Counted from the first letter of the stretch, positions 15,127-22,199 are shown. The stretch: DNA of 64,000 nucleotides from Nicoletella semolina (GCF_004345745.1 NZ_SLXJ01000006.1:1-64000), one strand, 5' to 3'. Numbers and translations are program-made. Notes: a model not told the origin generated them from the sequence alone.

Positions 15127-16722
15127 TTATTTTATGTTTAAGTTCACGGCTTTTTCGACAATAGGAATACCTTTTTTATAAGTTTGCATAAATAGCTCAT
15201 AGCCTTGACAGATGGCTTTGTCTGGTTGAATCAGGTTTATTTGTGTCGTGTTAAAAATTTGTTTGTCTAAATAGTCTTCCAAACTATAAGCATCTGAAAT
15301 CGTGAGGAAATTGGCCAGTAATGCGATTCCCCAAGCCCCGCCATTTGATGCGGTACTTGCGGTAGCCAGTGGAATATTTAACGATGACGCTAGGATTTTC
15401 TGGGCAACCCCTTCGGTTCTAAAAATGCCTCCGTGTCCTAAAATCCGAGAAATCTCTACTTTTTCTTGGTTGATGAGAATATCCATTCCTAATTTCATTG
15501 CGGCAAAAGCAGTATAAATATGTACTCGCATAAAATTGGCTAGATTAAATTGAGATTTAGTTGGGTGTAAAAATATTGGGCAGCCTTCGGATAACCCAAC
15601 ATTGTGCTCGCCTGAATGGAAACCATAAGCAAGAAGCCCTCCACAATCTGCATCGCCTTGTAGGGCTTGTAGAAATAGCATCTCATACAATTCTTCCTTG
15701 CAAACGTTTACGCTAAAAGTATCTAAACATTCACCAAATAAGTTTACCCAAGCATTGATATCAGGCGTGCAGTTATTAGCGTGAGCCATTGCAACTAATT
15801 TGCCTGCAGGTGTGGTAACAATATCAAGTTCTGCATAGACTTTCGAGAGTGCTTTTTCTAGTACAATCATTGCAAACGCTGAAGTACCTGCTGAAATGTT
15901 GCCAGTTTTCTCTTTAATGCAGTTAGTGGCAATCATACCAGTGCCAGCGTCGCCTTCTGGTGGGCAGAGTGGAATTCCCGATTGTAATATGCCACTTGGG
16001 TCAAGTAATTTTGCCCCTTTTTCGGTTAATTTGCCTGCTTGTTCTCCAGCCACTAGTACTTTGGGGAGAATAGATTGCAATGTCCAAGGCATTGCAAATT
16101 TCGTGATAGCGTCATCAAATTGCGTTAGCATTTTTCGATCATAGCTATTTGAATGAGTGTCAATGGGAAACATGCCCGATGCATCACCAATTCCCAACAC
16201 CTTATTATCAGTCAGTTGCCAATGAATATAGCCAGATAATGTCGTTAGGTAATCAATTTGAGGGAGATGTGCTTCTTGATTTAGTAGGGCTTGATATAGG
16301 TGAGCAATACTCCATCTTTGTGGAATTGGGTATTGAAAAAGTTCGGTTATTTTCTTGGAGGCATCTAAGGTGGTATTATTTCGCCAAGTGCGAAAAGGAA
16401 CAAGCTGATTACCTTGTTTGTCAAACGGCAGATAGCCGTGCATCATTGCACTGATTCCGAGAGCTTTAGCCGTGCGGATAGCGGTATGGTATTTTTCTTT
16501 GACCGTTTTATTTAAATCTGCATAGACCGCTTGTAATTTTTCCCATATTTCGTTTTGGTGGTAAGTCCAGACCCCATCAATCAGTTGATTTTCCCAATCT
16601 GCACCGCCAGTAGCAAGTATTGAGCCATCTTTACTAATCAGCACCGCTTTAATGCGAGTTGAACCCAATTCGATTCCAATGACAACATTGCCCTGTTCAA
16701 TAAGCTGTTTTGGATTTTGCAT
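15127..16722 (-). CDS. FGGY-family carbohydrate kinase
   Basis: A 531-residue sugar kinase that would phosphorylate a pentulose or related sugar brought in by the adjacent transporter. Phosphate loop 1 is GIELGSTRIKAV (a Glu where most members have Asp), the substrate-side segment is MMHGYLPFDKQG, the second ATP part is GDAGTGMIATN with GNISAGTSAFA, and the adenine-binding segment is GHGGIFRTEG with SNGGAWGIALLA. ATG 16720-16722 is chosen for its position 11 bases after the permease gene and the AGGTGG upstream; the frame extends 26 codons further without support. Last gene of the operon. No isomerase or epimerase accompanies it, so the exact substrate is open. Confidence 0.82.
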   Translation of the reverse strand: MQNPKQLIEQGNVVIGIELGSTRIKAVLISKDGSILATGGADWENQLIDGVWTYHQNEIWEKLQAVYADLNKTVKEKYHTAIRTAKALGISAMMHGYLPFDKQGNQLVPFRTWRNNTTLDASKKITELFQYPIPQRWSIAHLYQALLNQEAHLPQIDYLTTLSGYIHWQLTDNKVLGIGDASGMFPIDTHSNSYDRKMLTQFDDAITKFAMPWTLQSILPKVLVAGEQAGKLTEKGAKLLDPSGILQSGIPLCPPEGDAGTGMIATNCIKEKTGNISAGTSAFAMIVLEKALSKVYAELDIVTTPAGKLVAMAHANNCTPDINAWVNLFGECLDTFSVNVCKEELYEMLFLQALQGDADCGGLLAYGFHSGEHNVGLSEGCPIFLHPTKSQFNLANFMRVHIYTAFAAMKLGMDILINQEKVEISRILGHGGIFRTEGVAQKILASSLNIPLATASTASNGGAWGIALLANFLTISDAYSLEDYLDKQIFNTTQINLIQPDKAICQGYELFMQTYKKGIPIVEKAVNLNIK

Positions 16723-16733
16723 AAACCACCACC

Positions 16734-17684
16734 TTAATGCGTTACTTGGAAAAGACGATTTTTTTGTAGGAAAATAAAGAGCAGCAATATACTGCCCCAT
16801 AAGATCATCGTTATATAGCTACTGATTCCTAGCATATTTAAACCACTTTCGATCACTTGTAATAATACGAGAGCTAACAGAATACCAAGCAATTTTCCTT
16901 TGCCGCCATCAGGATTAATGCCCCCCAATACAGTGGCTAAAATAGAAATGAGCAAATAGGAATCGCCATAAGAAGCTTTGGCGGAATTCAGTTTTGACAT
17001 CATCAAAATCGCTGCAAATACGCAAAGGACAGAGGAAATAATATAAACCCAAATCAGAATTTTCTTTGTATTAATCCCTGAATAGTCAGCTGCTTTTGCA
17101 TTATTACCGATAAAATAGACCGCTTTCCCCATTGCGGTTTTTTCTAGGAAAAGCCAAATCAAGCCTGCAAGTAAAAGGAAAATAAGGATTGGAATTGGAA
17201 GCCAAAGAATAGTCGAAGCACTGATATTTAAAATGCTTTGAGGAAAATTTGCGATTGTTGATCCATTTGTTACTAAAATATTGATACCATTAATCAAGGT
17301 CATCGTGCCTAAGGTTGCCAAAATTGGGGAAACTCGAATAATTGCAATCAAAGTGCCATTTAATAAACCAATCACAAAGGCACATAAAAAACTGAGTACC
17401 ACCGAGAATAATAGCCAAGTCATACTCGTATATTGCGTAATAAAGTAAGCAATCACCAATGAGCAAGCATTCATACTGGCAATAATAGAGAGATTTATGC
17501 CGCCTGTAAGCATTGGCAATGCCATTGCCAGTGTGAGTATCCCTAACACTGAAATTTGTGATGCCATAGATTGAAAATTACTGACAGACCAAAATATATC
17601 AGGAATTAAAAGGCTAAATACGATCACAGAGAGGGTAAACAGAGCCAATAGATAAAAAATAGTATGATCAATTTTGTTTTTCAT
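16734..17684 (-). CDS. Sugar ABC transporter permease 2
   Basis: A 316-residue inner membrane permease of the RbsC/AraH/LsrD class with eight to ten hydrophobic segments. The family loop GGINLSIIASMNACS near the second helix and GGINPDGGKGKLLGILLALV in the C-terminal half are visible. It would pair with the other permease as a heterodimer. Its ATG overlaps the stop of the first permease by four bases (ATGA) behind AAGGAG, so the two are translationally coupled. Confidence 0.87.
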   Translation of the reverse strand: MKNKIDHTIFYLLALFTLSVIVFSLLIPDIFWSVSNFQSMASQISVLGILTLAMALPMLTGGINLSIIASMNACSLVIAYFITQYTSMTWLLFSVVLSFLCAFVIGLLNGTLIAIIRVSPILATLGTMTLINGINILVTNGSTIANFPQSILNISASTILWLPIPILIFLLLAGLIWLFLEKTAMGKAVYFIGNNAKAADYSGINTKKILIWVYIISSVLCVFAAILMMSKLNSAKASYGDSYLLISILATVLGGINPDGGKGKLLGILLALVLLQVIESGLNMLGISSYITMILWGSILLLFIFLQKNRLFQVTH

Positions 17685-18646
17685 CGTGATACTCCTTGTC
17701 TTTTACGTTGCCCTAATGCAGCGGCACTAATACTCAAAATAATAATGCTTCCTGTAATAATGGTTTGCCAGTAGGACGATACCCCCATTAAATTAAGTCC
17801 ATTTTGTATCATTGCCAATAAGGCTACGCCCATTACCGTGCCAAATAATGTCCCCCTTCCGCCAGATAAACTGGTTCCGCCTAGTACAACTGCCGCCAGT
17901 ACAGTCAATTCATAACCGAGCAAGGAATCTGGAGCAACGGATTGCACGGTATAAGATTGAACAACACCTGCAAGACCTGCCATAAAGCCCATATAACCAT
18001 AAGCAAAAAGACGAAGAAAAAAGAGATTAAACCCAATCCGTGAGGTCGCCTCTTGGTTACCACCTAGTGCATAGATTTTTCGTCCAATAGTTAATTTATT
18101 TGTGATTAACCAAGTGAGAAGTACGGCTAAAATTGCGATTAATGCTTGGAAAGATAAGCCAAATTCAAAGCCATCTTGAGTATTTTGCTTAAAGAAAATA
18201 ATCTCTTGGGTAAACCATAGTGGGTAATCATACAGCCAAACTCCTTTGGTAAAATAAAGCAGTCCGCCGTAAAAAATATTGAGGGTGGAAATAGTGATAA
18301 TAATCGAAGGTACATTAAGGCGATTAACCAAAACGGCATTGATAGCACCAAATAGCGTCCCAGCAGTTAATGACGCGATAAAAACCCCTAAAAAGCCAAT
18401 ATCGTATTTCCCAACAAGGGTCATCATCACATATTGCGAAATAATCGTGATAGCAGGAAACGAAATATCAATGCCACCTGAAAGTAAGACGATAAACAAA
18501 CCACAAGCTAAAATCATTAACATCGAGTAGTTGTTGATGACATCGTATAGATTTTCAATGGTAGTGAAGTCCTCTGTAAATAGACTGAGTAGAACCATCA
18601 GTGTAAGAATGGTTGCAGAAAGAATGCGATTATTGCTGATTTTCAT
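17681..18646 (-). CDS. Sugar ABC transporter permease 1
   Basis: A 321-residue membrane permease of the RbsC family. Typical features are SGGIDISFPAITIISQYVM in the N-terminal half and VVLGGTSLSGGRGTLFGTV in the C-terminal half, the EAA-like loop that meets the ATPase. The start overlaps the end of the ATPase gene by 17 bases and follows CCGAGGT. Two distinct permeases, as in the LsrCD or rhamnose-type systems, differ from the single-permease AraFGH system. Confidence 0.87.
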   Translation of the reverse strand: MKISNNRILSATILTLMVLLSLFTEDFTTIENLYDVINNYSMLMILACGLFIVLLSGGIDISFPAITIISQYVMMTLVGKYDIGFLGVFIASLTAGTLFGAINAVLVNRLNVPSIIITISTLNIFYGGLLYFTKGVWLYDYPLWFTQEIIFFKQNTQDGFEFGLSFQALIAILAVLLTWLITNKLTIGRKIYALGGNQEATSRIGFNLFFLRLFAYGYMGFMAGLAGVVQSYTVQSVAPDSLLGYELTVLAAVVLGGTSLSGGRGTLFGTVMGVALLAMIQNGLNLMGVSSYWQTIITGSIIILSISAAALGQRKRQGVSR

Positions 18647-20120
18647 AAATCACCTCGGCAAGAGCTTTTTCACTGGATTGCATTGGCAAAATATCACTGA
18701 CAATTTTGCCTTTTTTCATCACAAGAATACGATGACTGTTGTAATAGGCTTCCTCGACCTCGTCTGTTACAAAAATCACGGAAATACCTTGCTTTGCCAA
18801 TGATTTAATAATTTGGAAAATACCTTCTTTATTGGCAATATCTACCCCAATGGTTGGTGCATCTAAAATTATAATTTGGGGATTAATTGCCAACCATTTT
18901 GCAATGGAAACCCGTTGTGCATTACCGCCTGAGAGCGTATTGACGGGCAAATCAGGATCAGTAATTTTAATTTTCAATGAATCAATCAAATCTTGGCTAT
19001 AAGCATAGGCTTGTGCTGAATTAATAATACGAAATTTATTGGTAATTTTATGGAAAATCGTCGCAATAATATTGTGATGAATGGATTCTGCCATAATCAG
19101 TCCCGTATTCATTCTATCTTCAGAAACGTAGGCGATCCCTTTTTTGATCGCATCACGGTTGGTTTTAAATACTACTTTTTCGCCATTGACAAAAATGTCG
19201 CCAGATTGGGGTTGCGTAATACCAAATAAACTGAGACATAACTCGGTTCGCCCAGAGCCAAGTAAACCTGTTAAGGCAATGATTTCTCCCTCTCTAAGTG
19301 AAAAGTTAATCGCTTCATATTGGTGGGAAAGCGTTAAATTTTTGACTTCTAACACCGTCTTATTTTGCAAAAAGTTGGGCAAATCTAACCGCTTGTAGTC
19401 AATTTCTAATCCTGTCATTAAAAAGCCTAGGCGTTTCTCATTCATTTCGCTAATCGAATATTGCCCCACCATATTGCCATTTTTCAGCACTAAGACACTA
19501 TCAGAAACCCGCATTACCTCTTGCAATTTATGACTCACAAAAATAATACTAATCCCTTTACTTTTTAATTTGAGTACAATCTTTAACAGAGCAGCCACTT
19601 CTTTTGCCGTTAATGAAGCGGTAGGTTCGTCCATAATTAATAAACGTGCCTTTTGTGCTAATGCACGACAAATAGCAACCAACTGTTGTTGGGCTATCGG
19701 TAACGTGCCTAAAATGGCATTAAGATCTAAATCCGCATTAATGCTTTGTGCTGCCTTTAAAGCAACCTGTTCAATTTTCTTTTGGCTTACCCAGCCAAAT
19801 TTACGATGTAAGTTGATCGCAATATTTTCGGCCACGGTTAAATTAGGAAAGAGAGCAAGATCTTGATAAATAACTTGTATACCTTTTTCAATAGATTGTT
19901 GTGGTGTAAGTTTGGCATAGTGGCTTGCTCCAATTTGAATGCTTGCACCTTTATCGGGTTGATAAACGCCAGAGAGGATTTTAATCAAAGTTGATTTTCC
20001 ACACCCGTTTTGCCCTGCAAGACAAAGTGCCTCACCACGATCCAAAGAGAGGCTCACTTGGTTTAATGCTTTTACACCGTGGAAGGTCTTGCTGATATTC
20101 TGCATAGAAATAAATGCCAT
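18630..20120 (-). CDS. Sugar ABC transporter ATPase
   Basis: A 496-residue double-domain ATPase of the RbsA/MglA/AraG type. The N-terminal domain has Walker A GQNGCGKST, a non-canonical signature (LPIAQQQLVAICRALA) and Walker B LLIMDEPTAS. The C-terminal domain has a degenerate Walker A (GLLGSGRTE), a good signature LSGGNAQRVSIAKWL and LDAPTIGVD, where Ala replaces the catalytic Glu, so this site probably hydrolyses poorly. GGAGG precedes the ATG. A hairpin separates it from the binding-protein gene. Confidence 0.9.
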   Translation of the reverse strand: MAFISMQNISKTFHGVKALNQVSLSLDRGEALCLAGQNGCGKSTLIKILSGVYQPDKGASIQIGASHYAKLTPQQSIEKGIQVIYQDLALFPNLTVAENIAINLHRKFGWVSQKKIEQVALKAAQSINADLDLNAILGTLPIAQQQLVAICRALAQKARLLIMDEPTASLTAKEVAALLKIVLKLKSKGISIIFVSHKLQEVMRVSDSVLVLKNGNMVGQYSISEMNEKRLGFLMTGLEIDYKRLDLPNFLQNKTVLEVKNLTLSHQYEAINFSLREGEIIALTGLLGSGRTELCLSLFGITQPQSGDIFVNGEKVVFKTNRDAIKKGIAYVSEDRMNTGLIMAESIHHNIIATIFHKITNKFRIINSAQAYAYSQDLIDSLKIKITDPDLPVNTLSGGNAQRVSIAKWLAINPQIIILDAPTIGVDIANKEGIFQIIKSLAKQGISVIFVTDEVEEAYYNSHRILVMKKGKIVSDILPMQSSEKALAEVIYENQQ

Positions 20121-20137
20121 AATGCCTCCGAAGCACT

Positions 20138-20162
20138 ATATGGGTTCACAAAGAACCCATAT
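20138..20162 (-). promoter_or_regulatory. Intercistronic hairpin after the binding-protein gene
   Basis: A perfect ten-base inverted repeat (ATATGGGTTC / GAACCCATAT) with a five-base loop lies between the binding-protein stop and the ATPase start. There is no T run, so it is more likely an mRNA stabiliser or partial stop that keeps the binding protein more abundant than the membrane components, as in other binding-protein operons. Confidence 0.65.
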
Positions 20163-20173
20163 TAGTGGGTAGA

Positions 20174-21148
20174 TTAGTAGAGAGTATCAATATTTTCTTT
20201 TGTTACTTTTAAGACACTATGAAATTGGAGTAATTTTTTCTCGCTATCGACTTTGGCCTTGCCCACATTGGGGATCTCTAATCCCTCTTCGATTTTTTCA
20301 CCGTGAAGTACTTTGGCGGCAACAGCGGCTAATGCGTAACCTGCATTGGCTGGATCGTAGGTAATGCCCATTGTAATATCACCACTCTTAATTAAATTCG
20401 CCGCTTGCGATGGGATCATCATACCAAATACGCTTAATTTATTTTTCAAGCGTTTTTCCTTTACCGCTAAGCCTGCTCCAATCGGACCTTGTGAGCCAAA
20501 AGAGACGACCGCTTTTAAGTCAGGGTGAGCTTTCACTAAATCAATGGTCGTACGGCGGGCATCATTAATATTTTCTGCAACAGGCATTCTACTAGTTACT
20601 TCAAACATATCTGGGTAATGTTCTTTTTGATATTTCACGAATAAATCTGCCCAAAGGTTATGTTGAGGTACAGTTAATCCACCAACATAAATCACATATC
20701 CGCCTTTTCCACCTATCGCTTTGGCTATCTCTTCTACATAATCAGCAGCAAATTGAACATTATCAATAATTTCAATATCCCAATCTGCACTCGGTTGTCC
20801 CACTGATTCGTTAGTTAGAACAAGAATACCGTTCTGTTTTGCCTTTTTAAGTACAGGTTCTAGTGCGTTCGCATCATTCGGTACAACGGAAATTGCACGT
20901 ACTTTTTTAGCAATCAAATCTTCAATCAATTTCACCTGTTGAGGTGCATCAGTGTTAGATGGACCCACTTGGTAAGTATTGATCTGATTATCTTTACCTG
21001 CTTGCACAACCCCTTCTGCCATACGATTAAACCAAGGCATACCCTCAATTTTAGAAATATTGACCATATCGTTCGCCAATGCAGAACCATAGCAAGTGAA
21101 TGCTAAAATCCCTGAAAATAATGCGTGTTTTAAGGTTAGTTTTTTCAT
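20174..21148 (-). CDS. Periplasmic sugar-binding protein
   Basis: A 324-residue type I periplasmic binding protein. Signal peptide with AFTCYGSALA cleavage site near residue 25. Characteristic parts are MPWFNRMAEGVVQAGKD, VVPNDANALEPVLKKA, VVSFGSQGPIGAGLAV and ITYDPANAGYALAAVAAKVL, closest in pattern to the LsrB/RhaS branch (autoinducer-2 or deoxysugar binders) rather than RbsB. First gene of the operon, behind a CRP site and an AraC-type half-site. Ligand unknown; a pentose is inferred from the regulator. Confidence 0.85.
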   Translation of the reverse strand: MKKLTLKHALFSGILAFTCYGSALANDMVNISKIEGMPWFNRMAEGVVQAGKDNQINTYQVGPSNTDAPQQVKLIEDLIAKKVRAISVVPNDANALEPVLKKAKQNGILVLTNESVGQPSADWDIEIIDNVQFAADYVEEIAKAIGGKGGYVIYVGGLTVPQHNLWADLFVKYQKEHYPDMFEVTSRMPVAENINDARRTTIDLVKAHPDLKAVVSFGSQGPIGAGLAVKEKRLKNKLSVFGMMIPSQAANLIKSGDITMGITYDPANAGYALAAVAAKVLHGEKIEEGLEIPNVGKAKVDSEKKLLQFHSVLKVTKENIDTLY

Positions 21149-21266
21149 TGCTCTTCCCTCATTTCATTAAGAAGTCATTAAATTTGGACGATCACAAAAA
21201 TAGCGATATATCCCCGCTTTAATAGAAACAGCACTATTAAAGTAAGCTTAATTTTATGGAGTTAGC

Positions 21267-21295
21267 ATAGAAAATAATAGGTAAATTCTTGTCAA
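21267..21295 (-). promoter_or_regulatory. Candidate promoter of the sugar operon
   Basis: On the minus strand TTGACA (21295-21290) is a consensus -35; 17 bases on, TTCTAT (21272-21267) is a poor -10, typical of activator-dependent promoters. The araI2-like sequence overlaps the -35. Confidence 0.5.
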
Positions 21296-21315
21296 TGACA
21301 TGGAAAATTCTGCTA
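21277..21315 (-). promoter_or_regulatory. araI1/araI2-like half-sites
   Basis: On the minus strand the 17-mer at 21315-21299 reads TAGC-N7-TCCAT, the core pattern of E. coli araI1 (12 of 17 bases identical to the remembered araI1). About 22 bases further, overlapping the -35, lies a weaker half-site sharing TACCT (21293-21277). Order CRP, I1, I2, promoter equals that of araBAD. Confidence 0.6.
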
Positions 21316-21324
21316 TCTAAATTA

Positions 21325-21346
21325 AAGTGAGATCTAGATCACACTT
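21325..21346. promoter_or_regulatory. CRP binding site
   Basis: A near-perfect 22-base palindrome, AAGTGAGATCTAGATCACACTT, differing from the CRP consensus at only three positions. It overlaps the last codons of araC and lies about 74 bases before the predicted start of the sugar operon transcript, suitable for cooperation with AraC. Confidence 0.85.
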
Positions 21347-22199
21347 TATGCTCTTTTCCTCTTTCTACTGTTCTAAACTCTGAAGGAGAAAGTCCCGTAT
21401 GCTTCTTAAAAATTTTGGAAAAATACAGTGAATCCTCATATCCTAAGGATTTAGCAATGTTTAAGATGGAAATATTGGAGAAATAAAGCAGCTTTTTAGA
21501 TTCAGAAATACGTTGTAACTCTCGCCATTGAACTAAACTTACGCCAAGAGATTTTTTAAACAGGTGAGATAATCGAGAGGGAGACAAAAAGACTTTTTCT
21601 GCTATAGACTCCACACTGTCGTTAGCGGCTAAATTGGATAAAATCACATCACAGGCGGTCAATATCCGATGATCAATTGCAGGAATAATGGCAATTTTTT
21701 CAGCAGAAATACATTTCATCAATAAATATTCTAGCAAGGTTGTTGCGACATCTTCCTTGAAAAAATAGTTGGATTTTAATTCTACATCAACTTTAGAAAA
21801 TAATTGGCTCATCTCTTGGAAATAGCGAGAATCGTGGATTTTAATCCGCCCAATATTTGCCTCTTTGTTTGACCAACTTAGCCATTTATTCATTGTTGGG
21901 CTAGGCATAAAATAAATCCATTTATAATGCCAAGATTGAGCGTCTGGGTGGCGATAATAATGTTGAATAGCCTTAGGAAAGAAGAGCAATAACTGCCCTT
22001 TTTGTACATCAAATGTTTGCTCCCCATCAAATATACAGCCTTGCCCAAACGTGGTCAGTTGCAACATATATCCACTCATACCTTGTGGTTTATCAAGTGC
22101 AAAATCAAGATAGTTTCCTTTTTCGCATTGAGTCAGTCCACTAACCAAACTCAAGTTAAAAGTATCATTTAAAGACAGAAGTGAAAGATTTCGATGCAT
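21339..22199 (-). CDS. AraC-like transcriptional regulator
   Basis: A 286-residue regulator collinear with E. coli AraC: N-terminal cupin/dimerisation domain (LDFALDKPQGMSGYMLQLT, FFPKAIQHYYRHPDAQSW) and C-terminal double helix-turn-helix (IAEKVFLSPSRLSHLFKKSL; ILNIAKSLGYEDSLYFSKIF). Compared with E. coli AraC arabinose contacts, the Thr, Tyr82 and Trp95 equivalents appear kept, Arg38 is Lys and His93 is Tyr, so the inducer may be arabinose or a related sugar. It lies directly upstream of, and in the same direction as, the sugar operon whose promoter has araI-like sites. Two direct copies of GTTATATC (22201 and 22213) lie just before its start. Confidence 0.82.
   Translation of the reverse strand: MHRNLSLLSLNDTFNLSLVSGLTQCEKGNYLDFALDKPQGMSGYMLQLTTFGQGCIFDGEQTFDVQKGQLLLFFPKAIQHYYRHPDAQSWHYKWIYFMPSPTMNKWLSWSNKEANIGRIKIHDSRYFQEMSQLFSKVDVELKSNYFFKEDVATTLLEYLLMKCISAEKIAIIPAIDHRILTACDVILSNLAANDSVESIAEKVFLSPSRLSHLFKKSLGVSLVQWRELQRISESKKLLYFSNISILNIAKSLGYEDSLYFSKIFKKHTGLSPSEFRTVERGKEHKV

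Follow-up and report, generated by a model that had tools for sequence, protein, structure and literature searches.

D-ribulose uptake was described in 2025 for the Aau transporter of enterohaemorrhagic Escherichia coli and for the Rbl system of Citrobacter rodentium (Cottam et al. 2025, PMC12307932). The structure of the E. coli binding protein AauA contains bound D-ribulose (9I1M), and its KD is 1.98 uM for this sugar versus 598 uM for L-arabinose; D-ribulose transport by Rbl was shown genetically, and only the transporter and the kinase of its locus were needed for growth of C. rodentium on D-ribulose (PMC12307932). In E. coli, L-arabinose induces the importer and AraB phosphorylates D-ribulose; no regulator is known for the C. 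rodentium system (PMC12307932). Neither Haemophilus nor Pasteurella is named in that paper, and none of the papers searched mentioned D-ribulose use by Pasteurellaceae.

The window, the whole stretch of 64,000 nucleotides from Nicoletella semolina analysed in this work (GCF_004345745.1, NZ_SLXJ01000006.1:1-64000), carried six open reading frames on the minus strand, encoding a regulator, a binding protein, a double ATPase, two permeases and an FGGY kinase. The promoter elements lay between araC and the binding-protein gene (21343-21251). The features were as follows:

21339..22199, minus strand: AraC-family regulator with an altered arabinose pocket (NF007860 AraC, 368 bits versus a cut-off of 208; pocket table, tree and three-site test)
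21328..21343, minus strand: CRP box TGTGATCTAGATCTCA (9 of 10 consensus bases; distance to araI1 equal in more than 20 loci)
21299..21315, minus strand: araI1 half-site TAGCAGAATTTTCCATG (promoter alignment and site scan)
21278..21294, minus strand: araI2 half-site TGACAAGAATTTACCTA (21 bp from araI1)
21251..21256, minus strand: -10-like box TAAAAT (alignment of related promoters)
20174..21148, minus strand: AauA-type sugar-binding protein (72% identity to E. coli AauA; best PDB matches 9I1M and 3D02)
18630..20120, minus strand: double ATPase of the transporter, Aau-like (56% identity to Aau)
17681..18646, minus strand: permease 1 (61% identity to Aau)
16734..17684, minus strand: permease 2 (59% identity to Aau)
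15127..16722, minus strand: FGGY pentulokinase of the AraK type, a proposed D-ribulokinase (alignment with relatives, tree)

The start of the kinase gene is probably at 16722 and not at 16800, because family members align from 16722 and the longer open reading frame overlaps permease 2.

These genes quite likely form a self-contained operon for D-ribulose utilisation, with Aau-type import, one phosphorylation and an AraC of its own. The Aau-type ABC transporter would import D-ribulose and the adjacent kinase would phosphorylate it to D-ribulose-5-phosphate; no isomerase or epimerase would be needed, because D-ribulose-5-phosphate itself belongs to the pentose phosphate pathway. Transcription would proceed from one promoter with the layout of E. 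coli araBAD (CRP, araI1, araI2, -10), driven by the local AraC. The sugar pocket of this AraC is changed from the arabinose form, so the inducer is probably the imported sugar, D-ribulose.

The best evidence on the sugar came from the binding protein. The solved structures closest to it were 3D02 and 9I1M (E below 1e-147), with LsrB and RhaS far behind, and it matched AauA with 498 bits versus 63 bits for LsrB; the earlier note on this DNA, which had called it LsrB/RhaS-like, had thus missed the identity of the transporter. By sequence the transporter is of the Aau type, also in its gene order (binding protein, ATPase, permease, permease, with one double ATPase and two permeases). The six D-ribulose contact residues (K33, W39, E114, H163, E192 and S219; K37, W43, E118, H167, E196 and S223 for AauA in the numbering of the paper) were all identical to those of AauA in 9I1M. 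This set, KWEHES, was invariant in 27 Pasteurellaceae carriers of the transporter, four Aau loci standing alone and four Rbl-type loci whose kinase resembles RblK, and was also present in every close relative examined. The “unusual pentose or pentulose” suggested in the earlier note can accordingly be narrowed: an AauA-type binding protein points to a pentulose, D-ribulose.

Further Aau-like loci were also observed. A distant transporter (L145, genome G113; binding protein 39%, ATPase 48%) showed the pocket letters KWEHDS, and neither a kinase nor an araC was recognised adjoining it. A distant DNA search detected an aau-like locus in 2,190 of 5,426 complete E. coli genomes; in the examples read (L087, L088) it was located between yahJ and yahK, without a kinase.

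The survey of 140 genomes of Pasteurellaceae, bacteria that live in association with animals, revealed the Aau-type transporter in 27 and AraA in 32, with 8 genomes carrying both (about 6 expected if independent). An araC gene was found beside the binding-protein gene in all 27 carriers, and a kinase gene directly after the transporter in all 25 loci uncut by a contig end (23 of the AraK type and two of the AraB type; the copy in G012 was broken). AraA was absent from 19 of the 27 carriers, encoded in the same operon in three (G010, G012 and G039) and elsewhere in the genome in five. The three shared operons are counter-evidence to the proposal, as the transporter is not always uncoupled from arabinose. 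Four genomes (G116, G125, G127 and G131) had both an Aau operon and an arabinose operon. In G012, the araC-Aau-kinase-araA operon (L120) was decayed: the ATPase and the kinase were broken, and one permease was not found. The arabinose operon of G010 (L119) held the Aau transporter and its AraC, versus araFGH-like genes in the congener G011 (L158), an apparent swap of a transporter-regulator cassette.

The promoter had the order given in the earlier note, CRP box, araI1 and araI2, and coordinates could be assigned to each element. The spacing between araI1 and araI2 was 21 bp, as in E. coli; the double site had zero mismatches (chance expectation in the window, 0.00) and occurred once in the genome, so the AraC of the window probably serves this operon alone. 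A genome-wide site scan detected no other targets of this AraC above chance. The arrangement of CRP box, araI1 and araI2 was kept in more than 20 loci. The CRP box overlapped the end of araC, its TGA being the araC stop codon, and this overlap was also seen in close relatives. The -10-like box was TAAAAT here and TAAGAT in most relatives; a -35 would overlap araI2.

The regulator was assigned to the AraC equivalog NF007860 and was 43% identical to E. coli AraC from end to end, in line with the collinearity noticed earlier. Ten pocket positions, taken from established knowledge of the E. coli structure, were named before the comparison; we take P8, T24, R38, Y82, H93 and W95 to be among the arabinose pocket residues of E. 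coli AraC. In the window T24, Y82 and W95 were kept, and five positions differed: P8L (in a loosely aligned N-terminal arm), R38K, I46M, H80Q and H93Y. The earlier note had been right that arabinose-contact positions were changed, but its number, two, was too low.

P8, I46 and H93 were kept in all AraC proteins of arabinose loci. They were also kept in four Aau-linked AraCs, L119 and L120 (with araA) and L121 and L122 (with AraB), though these fell within the Aau AraC clade, and in L123 (Aau-linked, with araA), which grouped with the arabinose AraCs. Among the remaining 22 Aau-linked proteins, H93 was replaced by Tyr, Phe or Ser in all 22, I46 by Met or Leu in 21, and P8 was changed in 21. Only three of 164 ligand-domain positions discriminated the araA- or AraB-linked AraCs from those accompanied by transporter and kinase alone, and all three were pocket positions (hypergeometric p = 0.00017, a value computed on rows that are non-independent owing to the tree). 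A re-tuned AraC is well supported by these alignments, and the earlier suggestion that arabinose control had been borrowed and re-tuned gained in weight, since the pocket changes go along with the absence of araA in Pasteurellaceae. In the four genomes with both operons, one AraC paralogue kept the arabinose pocket and the other was altered; their half-sites were alike, and cross-activation between both operons is therefore predicted.

An explanation that differs from the preferred one only in the inducer follows the logic of enterohaemorrhagic E. coli: AraC would still sense L-arabinose, a gratuitous signal that stands for pentoses of plant origin, and D-ribulose would be handled by transporter and kinase. 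The promoter and DNA-binding sites are unchanged from those of the arabinose system, and L-arabinose is the sole inducer of E. coli aau (PMC12307932). The genomes G035 and G036 kept the arabinose form of the AraC pocket despite lacking AraA, and it is in those two that this explanation is most possible. As a general account it is rather unlikely, because the changes in the 22 Aau-linked AraCs fall on sites that no arabinose-linked AraC varies, among them H93, an arabinose contact in the structure of E. coli AraC. We lean, by a modest degree, to the view that these AraCs are natural variants re-tuned to D-ribulose, the first such sensor, by a few pocket changes (P8, I46, H93) with the DNA sites unchanged.

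The kinase of the window was nested within the FGGY clade linked to araA and araD (SH-aLRT 97). The Aau-linked kinases found without araA formed one clade (SH-aLRT 100), itself nested among the kinases of Pasteurellaceae arabinose operons; the kinase of L135 (Necropsobacter massiliensis) was a case apart. In distant bacteria, relatives of the window kinase were mostly flanked by araA and araD. On this phylogeny the window kinase is a descendant of the ribulokinase of Pasteurellaceae arabinose operons; the reaction proposed for it is D-ribulose to D-ribulose-5-phosphate. It had no match to TIGR01315 (RblK-type), and was one of three FGGY kinases in the genome. The Glu noticed earlier in place of Asp in the ATP loop was present, but it was invariant in 76 of 76 relatives and was ruled out as a mark of odd function. 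Eight sites were specific to the clade (L19, A41, T73, P132, C268, E437, L452 and N460), none of them assignable to the substrate pocket; by profile, the kinase aligned too weakly with AraB to map residues.

Kinases of other lineages occupied the same slot. In G035 and G036 it held a kinase of the AraB type (60-61% identity to E. coli AraB), and AraA was missing from both genomes; in the Rbl-type loci it held a third lineage (TIGR01315). The presence of three kinase lineages in one slot, with no isomerase, speaks for import of a sugar that is already a pentulose.

Relatives of the window kinase were also observed in other settings. In Pasteurella canis (L156:5724-8474) a kinase of the same clade lay beside a transaldolase gene, without the Aau transporter. 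A second subfamily, 57-60% identical to the window kinase (L162:6448-8064, L163:6005-7600, L164:5786-7387 and L166:6736-8340), adjoined a short-chain dehydrogenase, a ROK-like regulator and a CUT2 ABC transporter or a symporter; these loci possibly encode a pathway for a pentitol or other polyol with the same type of kinase. In Lonepinella koalarum (L153:1516-10101) a kinase of the window's clade shared an operon with L-fucose isomerase (FucI), a tripartite-tricarboxylate-like transporter and a DapA-like aldolase, with no fuculokinase within the operon. FucI also isomerises D-arabinose to D-ribulose (compare DarK in PMC12307932), and the substrate of this operon is perhaps D-arabinose. The occurrence of kinases of this clade with FucI and with transaldolase counts in favour of D-ribulose.

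The ancestry of the kinase raises the possibility that the sugar imported and phosphorylated is L-ribulose, with UlaF converting L-ribulose-5-phosphate to D-xylulose-5-phosphate. The kinase kept the conserved core of its arabinose-linked relatives, and its active site gave no sign for the D or the L form. The N. semolina genome contained two genes of the class II aldolase family: UlaF, in a complete L-ascorbate operon, and a 3-oxo-tetronate-4-phosphate decarboxylase. A UlaF-type 4-epimerase was found in all 27 carriers, in 100 of the 140 genomes and in 39 of 43 genera (the count of genera including weak matches), and the attempt to rule out L-ribulose by the lack of a 4-epimerase failed. This route is nevertheless unlikely, somewhat more so than induction by L-arabinose. 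The binding protein has the pocket of AauA, for which D-ribulose binding has been shown, UlaF is common in Pasteurellaceae and is accounted for by the ascorbate operon around it, and FucI beside a kinase of the window's clade fits D-ribulose. Moreover, the related system of C. rodentium was not induced by L-ribulose (PMC12307932). In our judgement, it is the binding protein that would decide for D- over L-ribulose, and not the kinase.

Descent of both kinase and regulator from the arabinose system, together with the three relatives keeping araA in the same operon, would also fit a degraded arabinose operon that has lost araA and araD, left as a relic or as a plain arabinose importer. This is very improbable: all six reading frames were open, and they were conserved across about 20 species from many genera (among them Mannheimia haemolytica, Histophilus somni and Rodentibacter), the arabinose operons of the family rely on another transporter (about 30% identity), and both operons occur together in four genomes. 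N. semolina could not isomerise arabinose after import: no match to AraA (PF02610) was found in its genome (1.95 Mb, 25 contigs, 100% complete), and five control genomes gave the expected results. The araA and araD that the earlier note had named as evidence against its reading, if present elsewhere in the genome, were represented only by the AraD relative UlaF, and this within the ascorbate operon. Least probable of all is the uptake of autoinducer-2 or of another sugar such as apiose or a pentitol, which are unlikely substrates for all the weak similarity of the binding protein to LsrB and RhaS: autoinducer-2 was rejected on scores (the binding-protein matches given above, and only 20 bits between the kinase and LsrK) and on gene content, with no lsrF or lsrG beside the operon, and for pentitols the operon has no dehydrogenase.

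On paper, the D-ribulose operon proposed here fills both gaps left in 2025, with importer, kinase and dedicated AraC in one unit, and is an example of how the ligand of a well-studied sugar sensor may change in nature. The arabinose-form and altered-form AraC paralogues within one genome offer a ready test, and the altered form is a possible D-ribulose biosensor.

Compared with known systems, the operon is nearest to Aau of enterohaemorrhagic E. coli (Cottam et al. 2025, PMC12307932), with which it shares the transporter (56-72% identity per subunit), the six D-ribulose residues and control by AraC. E. coli aau, however, is without a regulator or kinase of its own and relies on the AraC and AraB that the arabinose operon supplies, whereas in N. 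semolina an AraC with an altered pocket and a dedicated kinase adjoin the transporter. Rbl of C. rodentium (PMC12307932) is alike in having a transporter followed by a pentulokinase, and the binding-protein pocket is identical in the Rbl-type loci (L198-L201), but Rbl has a kinase of the TIGR01315 lineage, a KpsF-like isomerase and no regulator of its own, versus an AraK-type kinase and no isomerase gene in N. semolina. The araFGH-araC-kinase-araA operons of Pasteurellaceae (e.g. L146-L158) have homologous AraC, kinase and promoter sites, but they differ in the transporter, in the presence of AraA and in an AraC pocket that matches the E. coli form. The ribulokinase AraK of Clostridium acetobutylicum (CAC1344; PMC3507653) acts alongside araA and araD, unlike the N. 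semolina kinase; the two probably belong to the same family, as araA and araD adjoin the genes of the relatives in Firmicutes. The Aau importer and the AraC scheme were known separately; a single operon that joins them to a kinase of its own and an altered AraC, as seen here in about 20 Pasteurellaceae species, did not appear in the papers searched.
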